Positions 7,845 through 42,276 of a DNA stretch of 63,460 nucleotides are shown one piece after another. The notes below the pieces were generated by a model. It made no database searches, was not told the DNA's origin, and saw only the letters and a program-made list of their open reading frames with translations. A program made the position numbers and the translations under genes. Position 1 is the first letter of the stretch. Every line of letters begins with the position of its first letter. The DNA is from Lachnospiraceae bacterium (lineage in GTDB: Bacteria > Bacillota > Clostridia > Lachnospirales > Lachnospiraceae), in assembly GCA_017457865.1 (NCBI GenBank), contig JAFTGN010000025.1:1-63460 (forward strand), read 5' to 3'.

Positions 7845-7918
7845 CGAGGCGTGGCTCAGTTTGGTAGAGCGCTGCGTTCGGGACGCAGAGGTCGCAAGTT
7901 CAAATCTTGTCGCCTCGA
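7845..7918 (+). tRNA. tRNA-Pro (CGG)
   Basis: Complete cloverleaf: acceptor CGAGGCG/CGCCTCG, anticodon stem CTGCG/CGCAG with loop TTCGGGA, so anticodon CGG reads CCG. No encoded CCA. Confidence 0.93.
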
Positions 7919-7927
7919 CTGCTTTCT

Positions 7928-7999
7928 GGCTAGTTGGTCAAGGGGTTAAGACGTCGCCCTCTCACGGCGAAAACAGGGGTTCGATTCCCCTACTAGCTG
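7928..7999 (+). tRNA. tRNA-Glu (CTC), copy 1
   Basis: Acceptor GGCTAGT/ACTAGCT, anticodon loop CTCTCAC giving CTC (reads GAG). 72 nt, no encoded CCA. Begins 9 nt after tRNA-Pro. Confidence 0.93.
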
Positions 8000-8063
8000 C
8001 TCAGAATGTGATACATTCACATTCTTTGATATCCTCTTTTGAGGTTTTGTTTCAATTTTATAT

Positions 8064-8135
8064 GGCTAGTTGGTCAAGGGGTTAAGACGTCGCCCTCTCA
8101 CGGCGAAAACAGGGGTTCGATTCCCCTACTAGCTG
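8064..8135 (+). tRNA. tRNA-Glu (CTC), copy 2
   Basis: Base-for-base identical to copy 1 over all 72 nt, while the 64-bp spacer between them is unrelated to either flank, so it is a recent gene-length duplication or was homogenised by conversion. Confidence 0.93.
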
Positions 8136-25661: not shown

Positions 25662-25690
25662 TTGCAATTTTGCCCAAAAGGCAATATAAT
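25662..25690 (+). promoter_or_regulatory. Promoter of the dehydratase activase gene
   Basis: TTGCAA (25662-25667), 17-bp spacer, TATAAT (25685-25690). The transcript begins with a leader of about 140 nt containing an inverted repeat GTAACGGTT (25719) / GAACCATTAC (25754-25763) related to the ends of repeat family 1. The rest of the 25490-25834 divergent gap is AT-rich without a gene. Confidence 0.75.
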
Positions 25691-25834
25691 GTTTTTGATT
25701 GTCTTTTCATAAGACATCGTAACGGTTTAGTCATGCACCAGATCATGATTTCTGAACCATTACGAAACAACCGTTTCACCATCCGGAATGCAATATGGAA
25801 TTCCGGTCAAAAGAGAACAGAAATGAGGGATACT

Positions 25835-28800
25835 ATGGCTTGCGAAATCAACACTGCTTATCATAAGTTGGGCATTGACATCGGTTCTACCACTGTCAAA
25901 ATTGCCATTCTCAACCAGAACAACGATATACTCTTTTCCGATTACGAGAGACATTATGCAAATATTCAGGAAACTCTGGCAGAACTGTTGCGCAGAGCAT
26001 ATGAGGCACTGGGTCCTATGACTCTGTCCCCTGCCATTACCGGCTCTGGTGGACTGACATTATCTCAGCATTTGAAAGTGCCCTTTGTACAGGAAGTGGT
26101 ATCTGTAGCCACCTCTTTACAGGATTATGCCCCTCATACAGATGTGGCAATCGAGCTTGGCGGTGAAGATGCCAAGATCATTTATTTTACCGGCGGCATC
26201 GACCAGCGTATGAATGGCATCTGCGCCGGTGGTACCGGTTCCTTTATTGACCAGATGGCTTCTCTGTTACAGACAGACGCTTCTGGTCTGAATGAGTATG
26301 CAAAAAATTATAAGGCCATTTATCCCATTGCAGCCCGGTGCGGCGTATTTGCCAAGACAGATATCCAGCCGCTGATCAATGAGGGGGCCACCAGAGAGGA
26401 TTTGGCTGCTTCCATTTTTCAGGCAGTGGTAAACCAGACTATTTCCGGACTGGCCTGCGGCAAGCCCATCCGTGGAAATGTAGCATTCCTCGGTGGTCCT
26501 CTCCATTTCCTGGATCAGCTGCGCGCCCGTTTCATTGATACACTGGGTCTGACCGGTGATGCCATCATCGCACCGGATCATTCCCATCTGTTTGCTGCCA
26601 TCGGTGCTGCTATGAACAACAAACCGGAAGTCCAGATTTCCATCGAAGATCTGCACCGTCAGCTGAAAGAAGGCATTGCCATGGAATTCGAGGTCAAGCG
26701 CCTTGAGCCATTGTTTGCCGATCAGGCCGCTTTTGAGTCATTTGAGGCACGCCACAACCAGCATACTGTGAAAAAAGGAGATTTGGCTTCCTATCACGGT
26801 AACTGCTACCTGGGCATCGATGCCGGTTCTACCACTACGAAAGTGGCACTAGTAGGAGAAGACGGCACCTTACTGTATTCTTTCTATAATAATAACAATG
26901 GTAGTCCTCTGTCTACCACTGTGACTGCCCTTCGCCAGATTTATGAACAGTTGCCAAAGGATGCCAAAATCGTGTACTCCTGCTCCACCGGTTACGGGGA
27001 GGCGCTGATCAAATCTGCGTTGATGTTAGACGAGGGTGAAGTGGAGACCATTGCCCACTACAAAGCGGCTGCTTTTTTCCAGCCGGATGTAGACTGTATC
27101 TTAGACATCGGCGGTCAGGATATGAAATGTATTCGCATCAAAAACCAGACTGTTGACAGCGTCCAGTTAAATGAGGCATGTTCCTCCGGCTGTGGTTCCT
27201 TTATTGAGACATTTGCAAAATCTCTGAACTACAGCATCGTAGACTTTGCACAGGCGGCATTATTTGCCAAGAACCCCATCGACTTAGGAACCCGCTGTAC
27301 CGTATTTATGAATTCCAATGTGAAGCAGGCACAAAAGGAAGGCGCAACCGTAGAGGATATCTCTGCCGGTCTGGCATATTCTGTCATCAAAAATGCCCTG
27401 TTTAAGGTCATTAAACTGACAGATGCCAAAGATCTGGGGGAACATGTGGTGGTACAGGGCGGTACCTTCTACAACAATGCAGTTTTGCGCAGTTTTGAAC
27501 TGATATCCGGCTGTGAAGCAGTCCGTCCGGACATTTCCGGTATCATGGGTGCCTTTGGTGCGGCCCTGATTGCCCGTGAACGGTACGAGGGGAAACAGAC
27601 CACCATGCTTGGCATCAATGACATCGTGGCTCTGACTTATAAAACTACCCTGACCCGTTGCAAAGGCTGTACCAACAACTGTCTGCTAACCATCAACAAT
27701 TTCAGTGGTGGTAGACGTTTTATTACCGGAAACCGCTGCGAGAAAGCACTTGGCAATTCCCAGAATCAGGAACATCTGCCAAACTTGTTTGACTATAAAT
27801 ACCACAGAGTTTTCGACTATGAACCACTGTCTGAGGAAGAGGCCATTCGTGGTACAGTGGGGATTCCACGTGTATTGAATATGTACGAGAACTTCCCCTA
27901 CTGGGCAACCTTCTTCCGTATGTTGAAATTCCGGGTGGTGCTTTCTCCGGACTCTACCCGCAAAATTTACGAACTGGGCATCGAATCCATCCCAAGTGAA
28001 TCCGAGTGCTACCCTGCCAAAATCAGCCACGGCCATATTACATGGCTGATCCGCAACGGCATCAAGTTCATCTTCTATCCATGTATTCCATATGAGAGAA
28101 ACGAATCCGAAAGTGCGCAGAACCATTACAACTGCCCGATCGTCACCTCGTATCCGGAAAACATCAAGAACAATGTGGAAGAACTGAAACTGAATCAGGT
28201 GAATTTCATGAACCCGTTCCTGGCATTGACAGACGAAGCGGTAGCCACCAAGCGCTTGGTAGAGGAATTCACAAAAGCTTTCAACATTCCGGCAAAGGAA
28301 GTTCGTGCTGCTGCACATGCCGCATGGACAGAGCTGATTGCTTCCAGAGATGATCTGCGTAAAAAAGGTGAGGAAACCTTACAGTTTATGAAAGAAACCG
28401 GCAAGCGGGGCATCGTCCTTGCAGGACGGCCTTATCACATTGACCCGGAAATCCACCATGGTCTGCCGGAGCTGATCAATTCCTTTGGTTTTGCGGTGCT
28501 GACAGAGGATTCTGTGGCACACCTTGGCAAGATGGACGGGCGGCTCATCGTCATGGATCAGTGGATGTACCATTCCCGTCTGTATGCGGCAGCACAGTTT
28601 GTCCGCACACAGGAAAATCTGGATCTGATTCAGCTAAACTCCTTTGGATGTGGTCTGGATGCGGTGACCACAGATGGGGTCAATGATATTTTAACCGGCT
28701 CTGGTAAAATTTATACCGTATTAAAAATTGATGAGGTCAACAATCTGGGGGCTGCCAGAATCCGTATCCGCTCTCTCATCGCTGCCATTCATGAGCGTGA

Positions 28801-30097
28801 GAAGAAGAACCTGCCCCGTGAAGTGAAGTCTTCTGCCTACGAGCGTGTGATCTTTACAAAGGAAATGCGGAAAGAATACACCATCCTTTGTCCGCAGATG
28901 ACACCGATTCACTTTGACCTGATTGGTCCGGCACTCAGTTCCTGCGGCTACCATGTAGAGGTACTGCCGGAAAGCAAGAATTCCATTGACATTGGACTAA
29001 AATATGTCAACAATGATGCCTGCTATCCATCTCTGATCGTGGTAGGACAGATCATGAATGCACTGCTGTCCGGTAAATATGATTTGAATAAAACCGCAGT
29101 TTTTATGAGCCAGACCGGTGGCGGCTGCCGTGCGTCCAACTATGTAGGCTTCATCCGTCGTGCATTGCAAAAAGCAGGTATGGAACAGGTACCGGTCATC
29201 TCTGTGAACTTCAGTAAGTTAGAGAGCAATCCAGGTTTCCACTTTACAGTGCCTATGCTGTTAAAGGCCGTTTATGGTGCCATTTATGGTGATATCTTTA
29301 TGCGTGTCCTGTACCGCACCCGACCATATGAGGCCGTTCCCGGCTCTGCCAATGCACTCCATGAGAAATGGAAGGCAATCGTCATCGAATCACTGTCCAG
29401 AAAGAGCGTCAGCTACTCGGAATTTAAGAAAAATGTCCGGGGCATCATTGCGGACTTCGAGGCGTTAGAACTGCTTGACATCAAGAAACCAAGGGTTGGT
29501 ATCGTAGGTGAGATTCTGGTGAAGTTCCTGCCACAGGCAAACAACCATCTGGTAGACCTGTTGGAAGCAGAAGGGGCAGAAGCAGTGATGCCAGACTTGT
29601 TAGACTTTATGTTCTACTGCTTCTACAATGCCAACTTCAAGGCAGAAAACTTAGGTGCCAAGGCATCCACCGCAAGACTCTGTAATGTTGCCATTGCCGC
29701 ACTGAAAAAAGTGCGTAAGGTGGCTGCCGATGCATTTGCCAGGAGCAGTCGCTTCGACAACATGTCTGACATCGAACATCTGGCTGAACTTGCCAAATCG
29801 TTTGTGTCTCTGGGCAACCAGACCGGCGAAGGCTGGTTCCTGACCGGTGAAATGCTGGAACTGATCCACAACAATGTGCCAAACATTGTCTGCACCCAGC
29901 CATTTGCCTGTCTGCCAAACCACGTAGTAGGAAAGGGTGTGATCAAAGAACTGCGCCACAGTTTCCCGGATGCCAATATCGTGGCCATCGACTATGATCC
30001 GGGTGCTTCTGAGGTGAACCAGCTGAACCGTATCAAACTGATGTTAGCCACTGCCCAGAAAAATCTGGCAGCAAAAGAGCAGACAAAGTCAAATTGA
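25835..30097 (+). CDS. Giant fused 2-hydroxyacyl-CoA dehydratase activase
   Basis: A 1420-residue protein of the BcrAD/BadFG/HgdC ATPase family. Two ASKHA ATPase modules in tandem: GIDIGSTT near residue 13 with iron-sulfur cysteine in [10 protein letters not shown] near 129, and [10 protein letters not shown] near 327 with [10 protein letters not shown] near 449. A DUF2229 region (about 650-880) and a C-terminal region resembling a dehydratase component (about 900-1420) follow. Such activases use ATP to drive one electron into 2-hydroxyacyl-CoA dehydratases. I prefer the ATG at 25835 (GAGGGA 4 nt upstream); 25823 is possible. Longer frames begin before the promoter. No dehydratase genes are adjacent. 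Confidence 0.9.
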
Positions 30098-30410: not shown

Positions 30411-31988
30411 CTATTGTTGTGTGGGCTCATATACCACACCGGCAAGAACAGGAACATGTTGCGCATTGGTCACCGTTACAAAAAATGGACGATTCATCTT
30501 GAGCTCTGTTCCAGTAGATTCCTCTACAGATATCACCTGCTCTTCTGCCTCCCCCTCTATAGGCACATTCAGGAATTCCTGACCACTTACGCCAAAGTCC
30601 AGTACTTGCACCAATTCTGTCAGACACACCTGGTCATCTGTCAAACCGGAAAAATCTGCCCGTTCCCATGAGAAAATATCGGTCACTGCACAGTCCTGTA
30701 GAGCAGTTTTCAAATCCAGTTCAGACGCAATCTCAAACTTGGGGATCAAGACCTGCGTACCGGCTTCCCTCTGGCCTTCCCAGGTTTCCTCTTCCTGAAG
30801 CAGCTGTGCCATCTCTCCAAAAGACTCTAACAGCAATTCTTCTACAGAAGTGTCTTCATCCGGCAGGAACAGCCATATGGAATCCCCTTCCGGCAATGGC
30901 AAAGATACACCACGAAAATGAGTTCCGGTATAAAATACAAAATCCCCTTCCTGACGCATCCATTCACAGTTTGTGGTTTTGTTATACCCATAAAAACGAT
31001 CTGAAATAACATCCGTAGACTGAACCACATCCTGCCATCTTGCCTGATAGGTCACTGTGGACAACACTGCCAGCTGAACCTCCTCTCCCAATGAGATATC
31101 TTCCACCTGTTCTGAAGAAAAACCATCATTCTGTTCTTTCAGCCATTCCCGGACATAATAACCCAGTACATCTGTTCCCATTCCACCATTGTAAACGGAG
31201 GTCAGGTACTGGTCTGCCAGAAGTGCACAGGCATCCTCTTTCACCGCATAGTCCTTAGATACCCACAGAGAATTTGCAAACTGAGAATGGATTGCATCTG
31301 TATTTTTGTAACCGGAAAGCCACAAAGCCTGTACCAGTTCATCCAGATCCTCTGTATCCTCCATCCCAAGCAATGACAGCAACTGTTGTCTGTTGCTTTC
31401 TCCTGTCACTTCTGCCAGTGCACCCACTGACAAATATAATTGTGTAGGAGAATACACCTGATTCTGCTCTCCTGTATCCCCCAATACAAGAGGAATCATC
31501 AGCTGATAAAACTGCCACAACTGGTTCTTATACACCTCTAACAGTGCTGTGTCTGCCTGTTGTTCCATTGCTTTCTTTTCATAATCTACCTCTGCGCTGA
31601 TCCAGTAATTAAAGGTAACTGCTTCCTCCTTATCTCCAATGTCTATCTCCACCTCATCTGCCGTGTCCAATGTAGCCTTTTGGAAAAAGTCATCGGTATC
31701 CCATGCAATTTTTTCCTCTGTTCCCTCCTTTGCTCTGGTTTCCTGAAAAAGTGCCTCTGCATCCCCACTTTTTCCAACTCCCGATTTCCCACGTCTGGAG
31801 TTCATCCATACACTCCCATAGAAAACACCACCTGCCACCAACATCAGACTGGCAGTTAATGCAATCCAGCGAATGAACAGACTTTTATGAGTTCTTCGTT
31901 TCAGGTTCTGGTGATAATTGACTGCTTCTGTGATCAGTTTGTCATCAATATTACCAATGGCTTCGCTGATTTTTTCTGCCTTTCTCAT
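30411..31988 (-). CDS. Membrane-anchored serpin with anti-sigma-like N-terminus (serpin 1)
   Basis: 525 residues. Residues 1-36 resemble the cytoplasmic start of clostridial anti-sigma proteins (AIGNIDDKLITEA), residues 37-58 form one membrane helix, a linker follows, and residues 150-525 are a serpin ending in MNRPFFVTVT. The reactive-centre hinge is lost: where the inhibitory sibling has EEGCEAAAYT this one reads GQEFLNVPIE, with loop length unchanged. It is therefore probably not a trapping inhibitor but could still be cut or bind a ligand outside. The ATG overlaps the sigma gene stop (ATGA), as in sigma/anti-sigma pairs. Confidence 0.88.
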   Translation of the reverse strand: MRKAEKISEAIGNIDDKLITEAVNYHQNLKRRTHKSLFIRWIALTASLMLVAGGVFYGSVWMNSRRGKSGVGKSGDAEALFQETRAKEGTEEKIAWDTDDFFQKATLDTADEVEIDIGDKEEAVTFNYWISAEVDYEKKAMEQQADTALLEVYKNQLWQFYQLMIPLVLGDTGEQNQVYSPTQLYLSVGALAEVTGESNRQQLLSLLGMEDTEDLDELVQALWLSGYKNTDAIHSQFANSLWVSKDYAVKEDACALLADQYLTSVYNGGMGTDVLGYYVREWLKEQNDGFSSEQVEDISLGEEVQLAVLSTVTYQARWQDVVQSTDVISDRFYGYNKTTNCEWMRQEGDFVFYTGTHFRGVSLPLPEGDSIWLFLPDEDTSVEELLLESFGEMAQLLQEEETWEGQREAGTQVLIPKFEIASELDLKTALQDCAVTDIFSWERADFSGLTDDQVCLTELVQVLDFGVSGQEFLNVPIEGEAEEQVISVEESTGTELKMNRPFFVTVTNAQHVPVLAGVVYEPTQQ

Positions 31989-32545
31989 ATCACAAAACCC
32001 TCCTTTTCTAAATATTCCTTGAGTCCTGCCCGAATCCGAAACAAGCTACTTTTTATTTTTGACTGACTGCATCCGTTTTGTTTTGCCAGTACTTTTACAG
32101 AATCACAGTAAAAATACCGGCGAATGAACAACACTCGTTTGTCCTGCGGAAGTGTATACAGATACTGGCTGATGACAGAAGACAACATCTGTCCATCCAA
32201 CTCCATCTCTATGGTACTTCCGGCAGGAATACATTCTTCCAGTTCATCCAGTGACGCTTCAAACTCTGCACCGCCTCTTTTCACGCTCGTCTGTCTTCTA
32301 TAGCAGTCAATGGCTGTCTGTCTGGTAATCTTCCCCAAATACACAGGCAAAGTCTTTGGCCGCTGAGGCGGTATGGAGTTCCACGCTTTTAGATAGGTAT
32401 CATTGACACACTCTTCACAGTCCTCTAGATTCCCCAGAATGCGGTACGCAATCTTCGTCAAATACCGTCCATATTTTGTTCTTGTTTCCGCAATTGCAGA
32501 TTCCTCCCGTCTCCAGAATAAATCTACAATGGTTTCGTCTTTCAT
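31985..32545 (-). CDS. ECF-type RNA polymerase sigma factor (sigma 1)
   Basis: 186-residue sigma70-family factor of ECF type. Region 2 at about 15-80 (RYLTKIAYRILGN, then DCEECVNDTYLKAWN) recognises the -10; region 4 at about 125-180 (LPQDKRVLFIRRYFY, then KSSLFRIRAGLKEYLE) recognises the -35. AAGGAG lies 6 nt before the ATG. The stop codon overlaps the start of serpin 1 by 4 bp, so the two are translated in a fixed ratio. It is a close paralog of the factor at 34454 along its whole length. The regulon is unknown but probably includes its own promoter. Confidence 0.92.
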   Translation of the reverse strand: MKDETIVDLFWRREESAIAETRTKYGRYLTKIAYRILGNLEDCEECVNDTYLKAWNSIPPQRPKTLPVYLGKITRQTAIDCYRRQTSVKRGGAEFEASLDELEECIPAGSTIEMELDGQMLSSVISQYLYTLPQDKRVLFIRRYFYCDSVKVLAKQNGCSQSKIKSSLFRIRAGLKEYLEKEGFVI

Positions 32546-32627
32546 CGGGCTCTCCTTGTTGACTCATTTTCATCTTTTCTCTTTCGTATTCCATTTGCAA
32601 ATGGCGTAGCGATTTTCTGCTACATAT

Positions 32628-32657
32628 ACTATACCGCAAAAAAGAAGGCTTGGTTGC
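32628..32657 (-). promoter_or_regulatory. Putative promoter of the sigma 1/serpin 1 operon
   Basis: Minus strand GCAACC (32652-32657), 15 bp, CGGT, running into TATAGT (32628-32633). The same arrangement and spacing occurs before sigma 2 (35094-35118). It could be read by the ECF factor itself and, via TATAGT, by the housekeeping sigma. Confidence 0.45.
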
Positions 32658-32678
32658 ATATTTTTTCAAAAAATTTTT

Positions 32679-32808
32679 GTAACTGTTCAGTACCCTCACA
32701 GTTACGGGCAAAAATTCCAAATCGACTCCGTCGATGGAATTTTTGCCTGCATGACTCAGGATTTTGCTTCGCAAAACCTTCGCGAAATGTTGCCTCCTAA
32801 ATAGTTAC
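32679..32808. repeat. Palindromic intergenic repeat, family 1, copy C
   Basis: 130 bp: same as copy B except for a 4-bp loss in the first inner arm and the matching shorter pairing arm. It ends 11 nt from the serpin 2 stop codon and separates the two sigma/serpin operons. Confidence 0.88.
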
Positions 32809-32819
32809 AAATCTTTCTG

Positions 32820-34457
32820 TTATTCCATCTGATTGACTACACCTGCAAACAACGGCAATCCGTTTCCATTGCTGATATAGAACAGAAATGGACGATCCAC
32901 CACAAAATCAATTTCCTCATCCTGTTCCATTGCAGCAGTTGTTTCCACCATGATCACCGTATATGCTGCTGCCTCACAGCCCTCCTCATCTACTTTCACA
33001 CGGGCGGCATGGGTGATCTCAGAAACTTCCAGGTGTTCCACATCCTCTGTCAATGGGGTAAAATCAGACCGTCCGGCATCAAACACATCTGTCACACCAA
33101 GTCCCATCAGACCCTTCACCAAATCCTGTTCTCCGTCTACATCAAACTTGGGAACAGACAGATTTACCTGATAGGTTTTGTTTTCCGCACCGCTCCTTCC
33201 CTTCGACTGTACCATCGAAAGCACATCCTCATCACCTGCTAAGGATTCCGGTGTCACACCTTCTTCCGGCAATATCAACCACATCCCGTCCCGTCCATTG
33301 GAAAATGGCAGATATACAGCCGTAAAATCATCTCCTGTATACAAGGACATCCGACTGCTCTGGTGCATGAAATCACAAAGCACATCTCCCTCTACCTGAT
33401 GGAACGTCTGAGGTTCTGTACTGTCTTTCCAGAACTCATCGTCCCAGCGTGCTTTAAAATAAATAGAAGAAGCCAATGCGATCACTGTGGCCGGACTCAG
33501 TTCCATATTTTGCACATACTCTTCTAACAGTCCTCCCGTCTGTTCATTCAACCAGTCACGCAGTGCCTGGTTCAGTTCCTCTGACCCCATCTGACCGGCA
33601 TAAGAAGAGGCATAGTAGTCCTGTGCCAATGTATCCAATGTATCCTGCCGGAAATTCACCTCTTCATTCAGCCATATGGAATTGCCTAAAATACAGGTAC
33701 TCAATCCGTCATCTATATAATTGCTCTGCCACAGTGTAGAAATCTGACTGCGCAGTGTCTCTGCACTGTCTACCCCTAACAAATCCAGCACCTGACGGCT
33801 GCTTTCTCCATCTGTAATCTCTGCCAGCATACCCAGTGCCAGATACACATTGATGGGGGAATAGACCCGGTTTTCTCCTGCTGCCTCTGCCGATTCTCCC
33901 AGAAAGACCGGCAGGGTTTTATCCAGAAATGTACCCATATCCGTCTGAACGGACAGCTGGTTTCTGGCAGAATTCTGTTCACTCCACAAGTCATACTGGG
34001 TAAAATATGCATCTGTGTCCATTACACCGGTATCCTCATTTACATACTCCATCTCATCCGGATAGGGAATCTGTTCCGGATATACCGCAAGGGCGATCTG
34101 CTGTACGTTTCCCTGTCCATGTTCCGGACTTTCTCCCGTCTGTCCATTCTGGGCTTCTGTTCCCTGACTGCCTGCTGCCTGTGTAGTTCCCTCTTTTCCT
34201 GCCTCTTCTTTGGTGGGACGTTCCTCTGTCAATGTCTCCTGATTTTCCTTTCCAACAGTCTCCCCGATCGGTGCTTTCTTTAGCAGTGGACTGGCAAACC
34301 ACAGCGCCCCGCCAATCAGCACACAGCTTGCAGCCAATCCTGCAAAACGAAGGGCACCTGTTTTCTTTTTCTGCTTTGTTCCTCTCGCCTCTTCTGCCGC
34401 AACCAACAACTTCTCATCTACATACTCCATTGCATCACTGAGTTCTTCTTTCTTCAT
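32820..34457 (-). CDS. Membrane-anchored serpin with anti-sigma-like N-terminus (serpin 2)
   Basis: 545 residues. The N-terminal cytoplasmic segment carries AMEYVDEKLLVAAEEA, with a membrane helix at about 33-54, a low-complexity Glu/Gly/Thr/Gln linker to about residue 120, then a full serpin ending in FVVDRPFLFYI (serpin signature). The hinge EEGCEAAAYT fits the inhibitory consensus. Counting from the P15 glycine (about 493) puts P1-P1' at Thr507-Ala508, which suggests an elastase- or subtilisin-like target; the loop is about 3 residues longer than in alpha1-antitrypsin, so the bond could shift. ATG overlaps the sigma stop (ATGA). Confidence 0.9.
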   Translation of the reverse strand: MKKEELSDAMEYVDEKLLVAAEEARGTKQKKKTGALRFAGLAASCVLIGGALWFASPLLKKAPIGETVGKENQETLTEERPTKEEAGKEGTTQAAGSQGTEAQNGQTGESPEHGQGNVQQIALAVYPEQIPYPDEMEYVNEDTGVMDTDAYFTQYDLWSEQNSARNQLSVQTDMGTFLDKTLPVFLGESAEAAGENRVYSPINVYLALGMLAEITDGESSRQVLDLLGVDSAETLRSQISTLWQSNYIDDGLSTCILGNSIWLNEEVNFRQDTLDTLAQDYYASSYAGQMGSEELNQALRDWLNEQTGGLLEEYVQNMELSPATVIALASSIYFKARWDDEFWKDSTEPQTFHQVEGDVLCDFMHQSSRMSLYTGDDFTAVYLPFSNGRDGMWLILPEEGVTPESLAGDEDVLSMVQSKGRSGAENKTYQVNLSVPKFDVDGEQDLVKGLMGLGVTDVFDAGRSDFTPLTEDVEHLEVSEITHAARVKVDEEGCEAAAYTVIMVETTAAMEQDEEIDFVVDRPFLFYISNGNGLPLFAGVVNQME

Positions 34458-35011
34458 ACATACCCCTCTTTCTCCAGAAACTTCTGTAATTCTTTTCTGG
34501 TTCGATATAAACTGCTTTTCACCTTTGCTTCGCTCCCCTTTACATAACCTGCAATCTCTTTGATGGAATCACAAAAGTAATACCGGTACAGAAACATATT
34601 CCGCTGTTCTGCCGGCAAGCCATACAAATACCGGCTGATGGCCTCTCCCAACTGTCTGTACTCTGCTTCCTGCTCCAAAGAACGTTCCCCTGAAACACAA
34701 TCCGACAGTTCTTCCAACGACAGTGCATACTCACAACTGCCCCGTTTTTGACTGGTATACCGTCTGTAACAGTCGATTGCCAGCCGTCTGGTAATCTTCC
34801 CCAGCCATGCCGAAAGCCGCTCCGGACGGTTGGGCGGAATGGCATTCCATGCACGCAAATAGGTGTCACTGACACTTTCCTCACAATCTTCATAATTTTC
34901 CAGAATGTGATACGCAATCCGGAACAGATAATGGTCGTATTTTCGCTTCGTCTCGGTAATGGCACGTTCATTTCTGGCAAAATAGAGATCTAAAATCTGC
35001 TCATCTTCCAT
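34454..35011 (-). CDS. ECF-type RNA polymerase sigma factor (sigma 2)
   Basis: 185-residue ECF factor, paralog of sigma 1. Region 2 includes DHYLFRIAYHILEN and DCEESVSDTYLRAWN, and region 4 includes LPAEQRNMFLYRYYF and KSSLYRTRKELQKFLE. AGGAGG lies 6 nt before the ATG. Four-bp overlap with serpin 2. Upstream sequence resembles that of sigma 1, so the duplication covered promoter, sigma gene and serpin gene. Role: probably transcription of genes needed when surface proteases are present (inference from the partner). Confidence 0.92.
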   Translation of the reverse strand: MEDEQILDLYFARNERAITETKRKYDHYLFRIAYHILENYEDCEESVSDTYLRAWNAIPPNRPERLSAWLGKITRRLAIDCYRRYTSQKRGSCEYALSLEELSDCVSGERSLEQEAEYRQLGEAISRYLYGLPAEQRNMFLYRYYFCDSIKEIAGYVKGSEAKVKSSLYRTRKELQKFLEKEGYV

Positions 35012-35084: not shown

Positions 35085-35118
35085 ATTATAAAACACGCAA
35101 AACAGAAAGAAAAGTAGC
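35085..35118 (-). promoter_or_regulatory. Putative promoter of the sigma 2/serpin 2 operon
   Basis: Minus strand GCTACT (35113-35118), 15 bp, CGTG (35094-35097), then TATAAT (35085-35090) and a shared GCAGAAAAT downstream. No TTGACA is present at 17 bp. A short hairpin related to repeat family 1 (GTAACTG/CAGTTGC, 35042-35064) lies in the leader. Confidence 0.45.
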
Positions 35119-35200
35119 AGAATTTTTCAGAAAAAAAGAACAGTCCCCACTTTTTATGGTTTCTGTCCTCTTCTTCTAAACATATGGCAATGCCATCTTC

Positions 35201-42126: not shown

Positions 42127-42200
<74 letters not shown>

Positions 42201-42204
42201 ACAG

Positions 42205-42276
42205 CTCCCCGAGCAGGGCTCGAACCTGCAACACCGCGGTTAACAGCCGCGTGCTCTACCATTGAGCTATCGAGGA
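42205..42276 (-). tRNA. tRNA-Asn (GTT)
   Basis: Acceptor TCCTCGA/TCGGGGA, anticodon stem CGCGG/CCGCG with loop CTGTTAA, so GTT. Four nt before tRNA-Arg in transcription order. Confidence 0.94.

Follow-up and report, generated by a model that had tools for sequence, protein, structure and literature searches.

The 63,460-nucleotide (nt) stretch analysed here (the window; positions 1-63,460 of contig JAFTGN010000025.1, Lachnospiraceae bacterium, assembly GCA_017457865.1) carries two adjacent gene pairs on the minus strand, in the order sigB-serB and then sigA-serA, in each of which a gene for an extracytoplasmic function (ECF) σ factor runs into a serpin gene through a 4-nt ATGA overlap. We propose, with a probability of about 60%, that each pair consists of an ECF σ factor and a transmembrane anti-σ factor, whose extracellular serpin would act as the sensor and would be set off by a serine protease. 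The coupling of σ and serpin genes recurs outside the window, and ATGA-type junctions are found in many relatives too. Of the functions that the sequence data allow us to propose, protease sensing through the serpin is the likeliest.

Pfam and hydropathy analyses bear out the preliminary description of this DNA, which had placed two adjacent pairs with ATGA overlaps at this site, the second gene of each encoding an N-terminal segment, a membrane helix and a serpin. Both σ genes are of the ECF type, as it had claimed: each product matches Sigma70_r2 and the NCBIfam model TIGR02937 (60.8 bits for sigB and 70.7 bits for sigA, with a cut-off of 42.9 bits) above the cut-offs, while the Sigma70_r4_2 match of sigA stays below that of Pfam (19.4 vs 25.7 bits). 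The Pfam Serpin scores are 218.7 bits for serB and 134.4 bits for serA (curated cut-off 27), and the closest sequence relative of the serB serpin domain in the PDB is conserpin (E-value, E, of 2.9e-37). serA and serB share the same plan, in which ~34 mostly polar residues are followed by one hydrophobic stretch, a linker and the serpin domain. The helices are the best 19-residue hydropathy windows (starting at residue 41 in serB and residue 37 in serA), and the topology, predicted from hydropathy alone, would leave the N-terminal segment in the cytoplasm and the serpin outside. Both proteins have the layout of an anti-σ factor, that is, a coupled σ gene, one predicted helix and a short N-terminus ahead of it. 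At E up to 10, Pfam returned only Serpin in serA and serB, with no zinc-binding class I or RsgI-type anti-σ family, and no RsiV-type Pfam domain was found in serA, serB or eight relatives, in a search whose HMMER filters drop weak matches.

Several comparisons argue strongly that the N-terminus is an anti-σ module. A hidden Markov model (HMM) of this segment was built from 46 fused, σ-linked proteins, with serB as one of the input rows. Among 293 distinct serpins, counting those with enough upstream sequence, a σ gene stands directly upstream of 68 of the 72 with the module vs 1 of the 207 without it, a table that is partly circular because the HMM was derived from σ-linked proteins, that contains related rows, and in which module type ii rows are mostly counted as type i, both being matched by the HMM. 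The four module-bearing exceptions are L048_10, L114_5 and L292_15 (σ gene further upstream on the contig) and L062_0 (none found); the sole σ-adjacent serpin without the module, L114_4, adjoins L114_5. The module is not confined to serpins: 18 non-serpin open reading frames (ORFs) match it in the loci analysed, 16 of them behind a σ gene, one at a contig edge and one probably falsely. A search of 31 whole genomes for the module, more independent than the table, gave 18 matches at E<1e-5, of which 14 lie directly behind an ECF σ gene, most with a 4-nt overlap; the other four are one belonging to L114, one at the start of a contig and two that are taken up below. With the five query rows and two near-copies removed, 7 of 11 matches remain behind a σ gene, and at least 6 of these 7 carry non-serpin ectodomains. 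Weaker matches in the same genomes (1e-5 to 1e-3) are behind a σ gene in four of seven cases. The serA module was recovered with an E of 1.3e-20, a value obtained with the serA segment as a row of the query alignment. Sequence comparison links the module to σ genes and shows ectodomains being exchanged behind it, in agreement with the resemblance to anti-σ N-termini put forward in the preliminary description. The genome from which the window comes has two further ECF/anti-σ-like pairs with the same module and non-serpin ectodomains (L335, G000:C10; L337, G000:C98).

The module tracks the σ factor more closely than the serpin does. Over 63 σ/module/serpin triples (after removal of duplicates, of one truncated σ factor and of four proteins whose start was doubtful), σ and module distances correlate with an r of 0.72, a value reached in none of 500 permutations, and with an r of 0.68 when the serpin is held constant; the correlation between σ and serpin distances is 0.33 and falls to 0.02 with the module held constant. 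Serpins of module type i share on average 48% identity with those of type ii and 45% among themselves, vs 20% for the σ factors of types i and ii. A serpin tree was calculated with FastTree from 164 rows, including 45 free serpins drawn at random, and L283_1, L292_15, L242_7 and L243_1 were set by hand as fused type i without a detected adjacent σ gene. The fused type i label changes 23 times on this tree, and at least 11 of the changes are forced by well-supported branches. So many changes imply that serpins have moved repeatedly between a free state and anti-σ anchors.

The fused serpins, serA apart, look like working traps with a constant hinge and a variable bait. Of the 56 parsed type i fused serpins, 55 retain the hinge, serA being the exception, and so do 13 of 14 of type ii, where the exception has one Val; loops that could not be parsed (fused L306_8 and L013_5, several free and three-gene rows) were left out. 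Among the 73 fused loops, Glu occupies P17 in 71, Gly P15 in all 73, Ala or Gly P12 in all 73 and Thr P8 in 71, and the entropy of P5-P1 is 2.2-3.1 bits. Assigned by counting, P1 is Ala in 25, Gly in 16, Thr in 10 and Ser in 9 of these loops, and in serB, counted from the hinge, it is Thr507. Such small P1 residues suggest that a triggering protease would probably be elastase-like or subtilisin-like.

serA and serB are the sole serpin matches in their own genome (2.6 Mb, 114 contigs, 100% complete). Both pairs are also present in G001 (74% complete), one of the two other genomes of the genus that were compared, where the serB copy is 93% identical; being conserved there, the pair-of-pairs arrangement is not a matter of chance. 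The other genome, G002 (91% complete), has only one serpin, with a lipoprotein-like signal. The preliminary description called the two operons tandem, which is correct as to their position; serA and serB, however, are only 27% identical (alignment A1) and differ in the hinge. serB has the residues expected of an inhibitory serpin (P17 Glu, P15 Gly, small P12-P10), while the hinge of serA is degenerate, and likewise that of its G001 copy. Compared with the RUG702 contig (locus L230, the reference for these comparisons with the window), the ratio of nonsynonymous to synonymous substitution rates (dN/dS) of serB is 0.21 for the whole gene, 0.20 for the serpin domain and 0.32 across 25 hinge-loop codons; the serB hinge is identical in RUG702 and the loop centre differs. 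The corresponding values of serA are 0.44 for the whole gene and 0.26 for the serpin domain. In both modules there is not a single amino-acid change across the 34 codons. Loss of the hinge weakens the protease-cleavage reading for serA, which is more likely a non-inhibitory version of the serpin anti-σ factor. The claim that the serpin is the sensor, made in the preliminary description, is upheld in part: apart from the serpin there is no sizeable ectodomain, and the fused proteins retain the hinge, yet the cleavage of a bait loop is harder to defend for serA.

We propose that the ~34-residue cytoplasmic segment would hold the σ factor, and that the serpin outside the cell would offer its reactive loop as bait. 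A serine protease that cuts the loop, or is trapped by it, would cause the irreversible stressed-to-relaxed change of the serpin; the stalk would then become exposed to site-1 proteolysis, for which signal peptidase is a candidate, followed by an intramembrane site-2 cut. The freed σ factor would transcribe its own operon and so provide more of the serpin, which would also be the inhibitor. A single protein would combine a sensor, a single-use trap and a switch. A more elaborate form of the proposal, to which we give somewhat less than even odds, holds that the irreversible change of the serpin is itself the transmembrane switch, that each serpin receptor is a suicide trap, signalling a single proteolytic attack, consumed in use and replaced through the σ factor, and that closely related serpins came to stand on unrelated ECF/anti-σ chassis more than once.

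Genes for both candidate proteases of this scheme are present in the genome, for a site-2 protease with an E of 5.6e-63 and for signal peptidase I with an E of 3.2e-43; their presence is permissive only, since both families occur in most of 14 control genomes. Of 62 fused proteins, 44 have an AxA motif, a possible signal-peptidase site, behind the helix, vs 26.6 in shuffled sequences. Candidate promoters were looked for upstream of 69 σ genes. The first patterns mostly failed, TGC(A/T)AC-N16-CG(G/T) occurring in only four of the regions, all of them from the window or from RUG702; a dyad search then gave GCAAC-N17-GGTA, found upstream of 10 of the σ genes (eight of type ii, and one being sigA; near-copies included) vs 0.06 in shuffled sequences, and a looser dyad pattern in 14 vs 2.4. 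The presence of ECF-like dyads upstream of the σ genes of the window and of relatives points to autoregulation in some of these operons.

The layout recurs widely. In a family-level sample, taken as Lachnospiraceae, a serpin is present in 140 of 397 genomes. A census drawn from most of the listed matches yielded 170 distinct serpins after the removal of duplicates and of ORFs shorter than 370 amino acids (aa), L064_18, a cut copy of L048_10, being counted once. Among these, 26 are fused, having an anti-σ-like N-terminus and a helix; four of the 26 are serA, serB and their G001 copies, and the other 22 come from 19 genomes outside the genus. A further 14 serpins stand behind a σ gene and a gene for a non-serpin membrane protein. 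These three-gene sets are undercounted because only 78 of the 120 counted rows (one of them a duplicate) have 1.5 kb of upstream sequence. Of 13 middle proteins, 10 were scanned, and in these Pfam found no family above the cut-off. Another 119 serpins belong to neither class, and 11 had less than 600 nt upstream. Nine of the 119 have a σ gene nearby in another way, either directly upstream (L114_4), 0.7-1.1 kb away (L073_18, L104_4), more than 2 kb away (L039_4, L091_6, L104_1) or just downstream (L015_10, L027_0, L051_0). In the last three loci the ECF σ gene lies 74-94 nt downstream of the serpin gene on the same strand, and in L015 and L051 it is followed by a module-bearing non-serpin protein.

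A contig scan with eight close fused relatives as the query, and for that reason biased towards serB, found 524 relatives; an alignment of 22 fused proteins had been tried as the query, was too diverse and was replaced by this closer set. In the best 80 loci among these, 51 of 86 serpin ORFs (at least 300 aa) directly follow an ECF σ gene, 33 have no detected σ gene (the contig-edge L283_1 included) and two have one further upstream. These 80 loci are mostly of Lachnospiraceae, Oscillospiraceae or Clostridia and include strain-named Flavonifractor, Pseudoflavonifractor phocaeensis and Cuneatibacter records; fused genes occur, for example, in Flavonifractor sp. An112 and Cuneatibacter sp. NSJ-177. 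In other Clostridia, none of 50 class-level loci has a σ gene in the upstream sequence examined (~1.5-3 kb, less at contig ends), the loci being a non-random sample of the 30 best-scoring (~1.5 kb upstream) and 20 chosen mostly for long frames (up to ~3 kb).

Some individual loci depart from the common plan. L114:1-6270 (G004) has a σ gene, a secreted-type serpin and a fused anti-σ serpin in a row, placing a sensor-like beside an effector-like protein, and L262:1869-5419, from the metagenome-assembled genome of an uncultured Eubacterium, has a σ gene, a fused serpin and a secreted-type serpin in that order. The 717-aa type iii fused serpin of L013:697-2850 (G098:C6) bears BspA-type leucine-rich repeats after the serpin. 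Serpin ORFs of L037, L047 and L053 have no evident signal peptide or helix, and are possibly cytoplasmic or have wrong starts. The serpins of L210-L228, from other Clostridia families, are 563-941 aa long with long, secreted-looking N-terminal extensions.

A number of results weigh against protease sensing by a serpin anti-σ factor. Module and serpin distances also correlate (r 0.44, or 0.31 when the σ factor is held constant), and if only the 50 type i rows are taken, the values are 0.63 for σ and module, 0.39 for σ and serpin and 0.46 for module and serpin. The module matches L330 and L331 (2 of the 18 in the 31 genomes) have no σ gene in reach, and in the proteins scanned Pfam has no family for the short segment proposed to bind the σ factor. 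The inhibitory hinge is lost in serA. Retention of the hinge is about as frequent in free serpins (62 of 68 parsed rows) as in fused ones, which makes it a sign of a working serpin and not of a sensor. An aromatic residue, Tyr or Phe, occupies P9 in 67 of the 73 fused loops (Tyr in serB), and likewise in many free serpins, whereas the inhibitory hinge consensus, as given in an excerpt of PMC8233489, has Ala at this position. The 30-residue stretch after the serB helix has no AxA, and some lipoprotein serpins share a similar segment. The promoter dyads cover a minority of the σ genes even with near-copies counted (10 of 69 for the strict pattern). Finally, 119 of the 159 family serpins with at least 600 nt of upstream sequence are neither fused nor part of a three-gene set. 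The preliminary description had taken serpins lying mostly away from σ genes as a result that would refute its proposal; in the literal sense this is what we found, yet the figure mixes two classes, because the serpins away from σ genes are without the module (206 of the 207 lacking it have no adjacent σ gene).

The serpin could be an effector and not a sensor, a membrane-tethered shield whose production is controlled by its own anti-σ tail, with the σ factor freed by another cue such as membrane stress, by a second protein or by a cytoplasmic signal. Lipobox-like free serpins are common in the family (the pattern matched in 94 of 186 serpin ORFs), in the 14 three-gene loci the separate serpin looks like an output, and RsiV itself doubles as an inhibitor according to an excerpt of PMC5014341. 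The fused proteins, however, have no sizeable extracellular domain other than the serpin, which leaves little else for an outside signal to act on, and an output needs no fusion to an anti-σ factor, yet serpins switch to or from the fused label many times on the tree. We consider a pure effector role unlikely. Some non-inhibitory serpins bind peptides or small molecules, and the serpin fold may similarly sense such a ligand with no protease being trapped. The bulky P9 would fit this, and so would the loss of the serA hinge in a serpin domain that is still constrained, but the remainder of the hinge is near-invariant around a variable loop centre, which is the pattern of inhibitory serpins, and ligand sensing of this kind has, in our judgement, only a slim chance of being correct. 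Plain shedding, in which any clip in the stalk or the loop would remove the ectodomain and start intramembrane proteolysis, the serpin transition being irrelevant, we hold to be quite improbable: cleavage outside at site 1 and then at site 2 is the known RsiV scheme (excerpt of PMC6066255), and the stretches after the helix of the fused proteins vary widely in sequence, but shedding does not account for a conserved hinge, on which loop insertion depends, next to a variable bait. A reading in which the N-terminus is no anti-σ module and the serpin is only co-transcribed with the ECF gene would agree with the failure of Pfam to match any known anti-σ domain, but is scarcely credible in view of the 68 of 72 vs 1 of 207 distribution, the occurrence of the module behind σ genes with other ectodomains and its tracking of the σ factor.

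The features of the two pairs are collected in Table 1. Elsewhere in the window there are five tRNA genes in two clusters (7845-8135 and 42127-42276). A 1475-aa ORF at 25670-30097, presumably a 2-hydroxyacyl-CoA dehydratase activase type protein, adjoins serA on the opposite strand.

Table 1 Features of the two σ-serpin gene pairs, in window coordinates.
Feature	Position	Strand	Description
sigB	34454-35011	-	ECF σ factor, 185 aa; Sigma70_r2 E 7.4e-12 and Sigma70_r4_2 E 1.4e-8, both above cut-off
serB	32820-34457	-	545 aa; proposed transmembrane serpin anti-σ factor; ATGA overlap with sigB
serB residues 1-34	34356-34457	-	Cytoplasmic module, proposed σ-binding segment
serB residues 41-59	34281-34337	-	Predicted membrane helix, best hydropathy window
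serB residues 190-542, serpin domain	32832-33890	-	Pfam Serpin (PF00079) E 1.9e-64
serB hinge and reactive-centre loop	32934-32987	-	P17 (Glu491) to P1' (Ala508); inhibitory-type hinge
Candidate ECF-type promoter of sigB	35095-35119	-	TGCTAC-N16-CGT
sigA	31985-32545	-	ECF σ factor, 186 aa; Sigma70_r2 E 2e-11, above cut-off
serA	30411-31988	-	525 aa; second proposed serpin anti-σ factor; ATGA overlap with sigA
serA residues 1-34	31887-31988	-	Cytoplasmic module
serA residues 37-55	31824-31880	-	Predicted membrane helix, best hydropathy window
serA residues 172-522, serpin domain	30423-31475	-	Pfam Serpin E 7.7e-39
serA degenerate hinge region	30549-30599	-	GVSGQEFL from Gly466, in place of Gxx-Ala-Ala-Ala
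Candidate ECF-type promoter of sigA	32634-32658	-	TGCAACC-N15-CGG (GCAAC-N17-GGTA)

Inhibition is the known role of serpins, and ECF/anti-σ pairs are known to sense such cues as envelope stress or lysozyme. In BlaR1-type sensors the sensor domain is related to the effector enzyme and is covalently modified by the ligand that it senses; unlike the serpin pairs, BlaR1 senses β-lactams through a repressor, with neither a σ factor nor a serpin. The ectodomain of RsiV is not a serpin, and σI, the partner of RsgI, is not an ECF factor. RsiV/σV from Bacillus subtilis is the closest precedent. As described in excerpts of PMC5014341 and PMC6066255, it likewise consists of an ECF σ factor and a transmembrane anti-σ factor, the ectodomain of RsiV binds an enzyme of host defence and inhibits it, and σV transcribes its own operon, as proposed for the serpin pairs. 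Lysozyme binding exposes a signal-peptidase site in RsiV, after which the site-2 protease RasP cuts (PMC5014341, PMC6066255). The ligand of RsiV, in contrast to the proposed trigger of the serpin pairs, is lysozyme, whose active-site pocket is where binding takes place (PMC5014341, PMC6066255), and serA and serB matched no Pfam domain other than Serpin. RsgI/σI of Clostridium thermocellum and Acetivibrio cellulolyticus resembles the serpin pairs in having anti-σ factors with exchangeable extracellular sensors; according to excerpts of PMC3413522 and PMC3990059, those sensors are carbohydrate-binding or PA14-like, and serpins are there separate cellulosomal proteins. The siropins of Eubacterium siraeum are serpins of a gut Firmicute that inhibit human neutrophil elastase and proteinase 3; in the excerpt of PMC5127057 they are studied as inhibitors, and no operon or σ factor context is described.

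Searches of the open-licence PMC literature found no serpin anti-σ factor, and none is described in excerpts of PMC3413522, PMC12484212, PMC3990059, PMC10059941, PMC8233489 and PMC5127057, so that the statement in the preliminary description that no known system couples a serpin to a σ factor stands uncontradicted by these searches. Because the module has no Pfam family in the proteins scanned, serpin-bearing anti-σ proteins are probably annotated simply as serpins. If our proposal is true, gut bacteria would directly read extracellular serine-protease activity, such as that of host elastases, and a role would be found for some of the numerous serpins in gut Firmicutes. It would also become testable which proteases trigger which σ factor, and whether the loop sequence sets the specificity.

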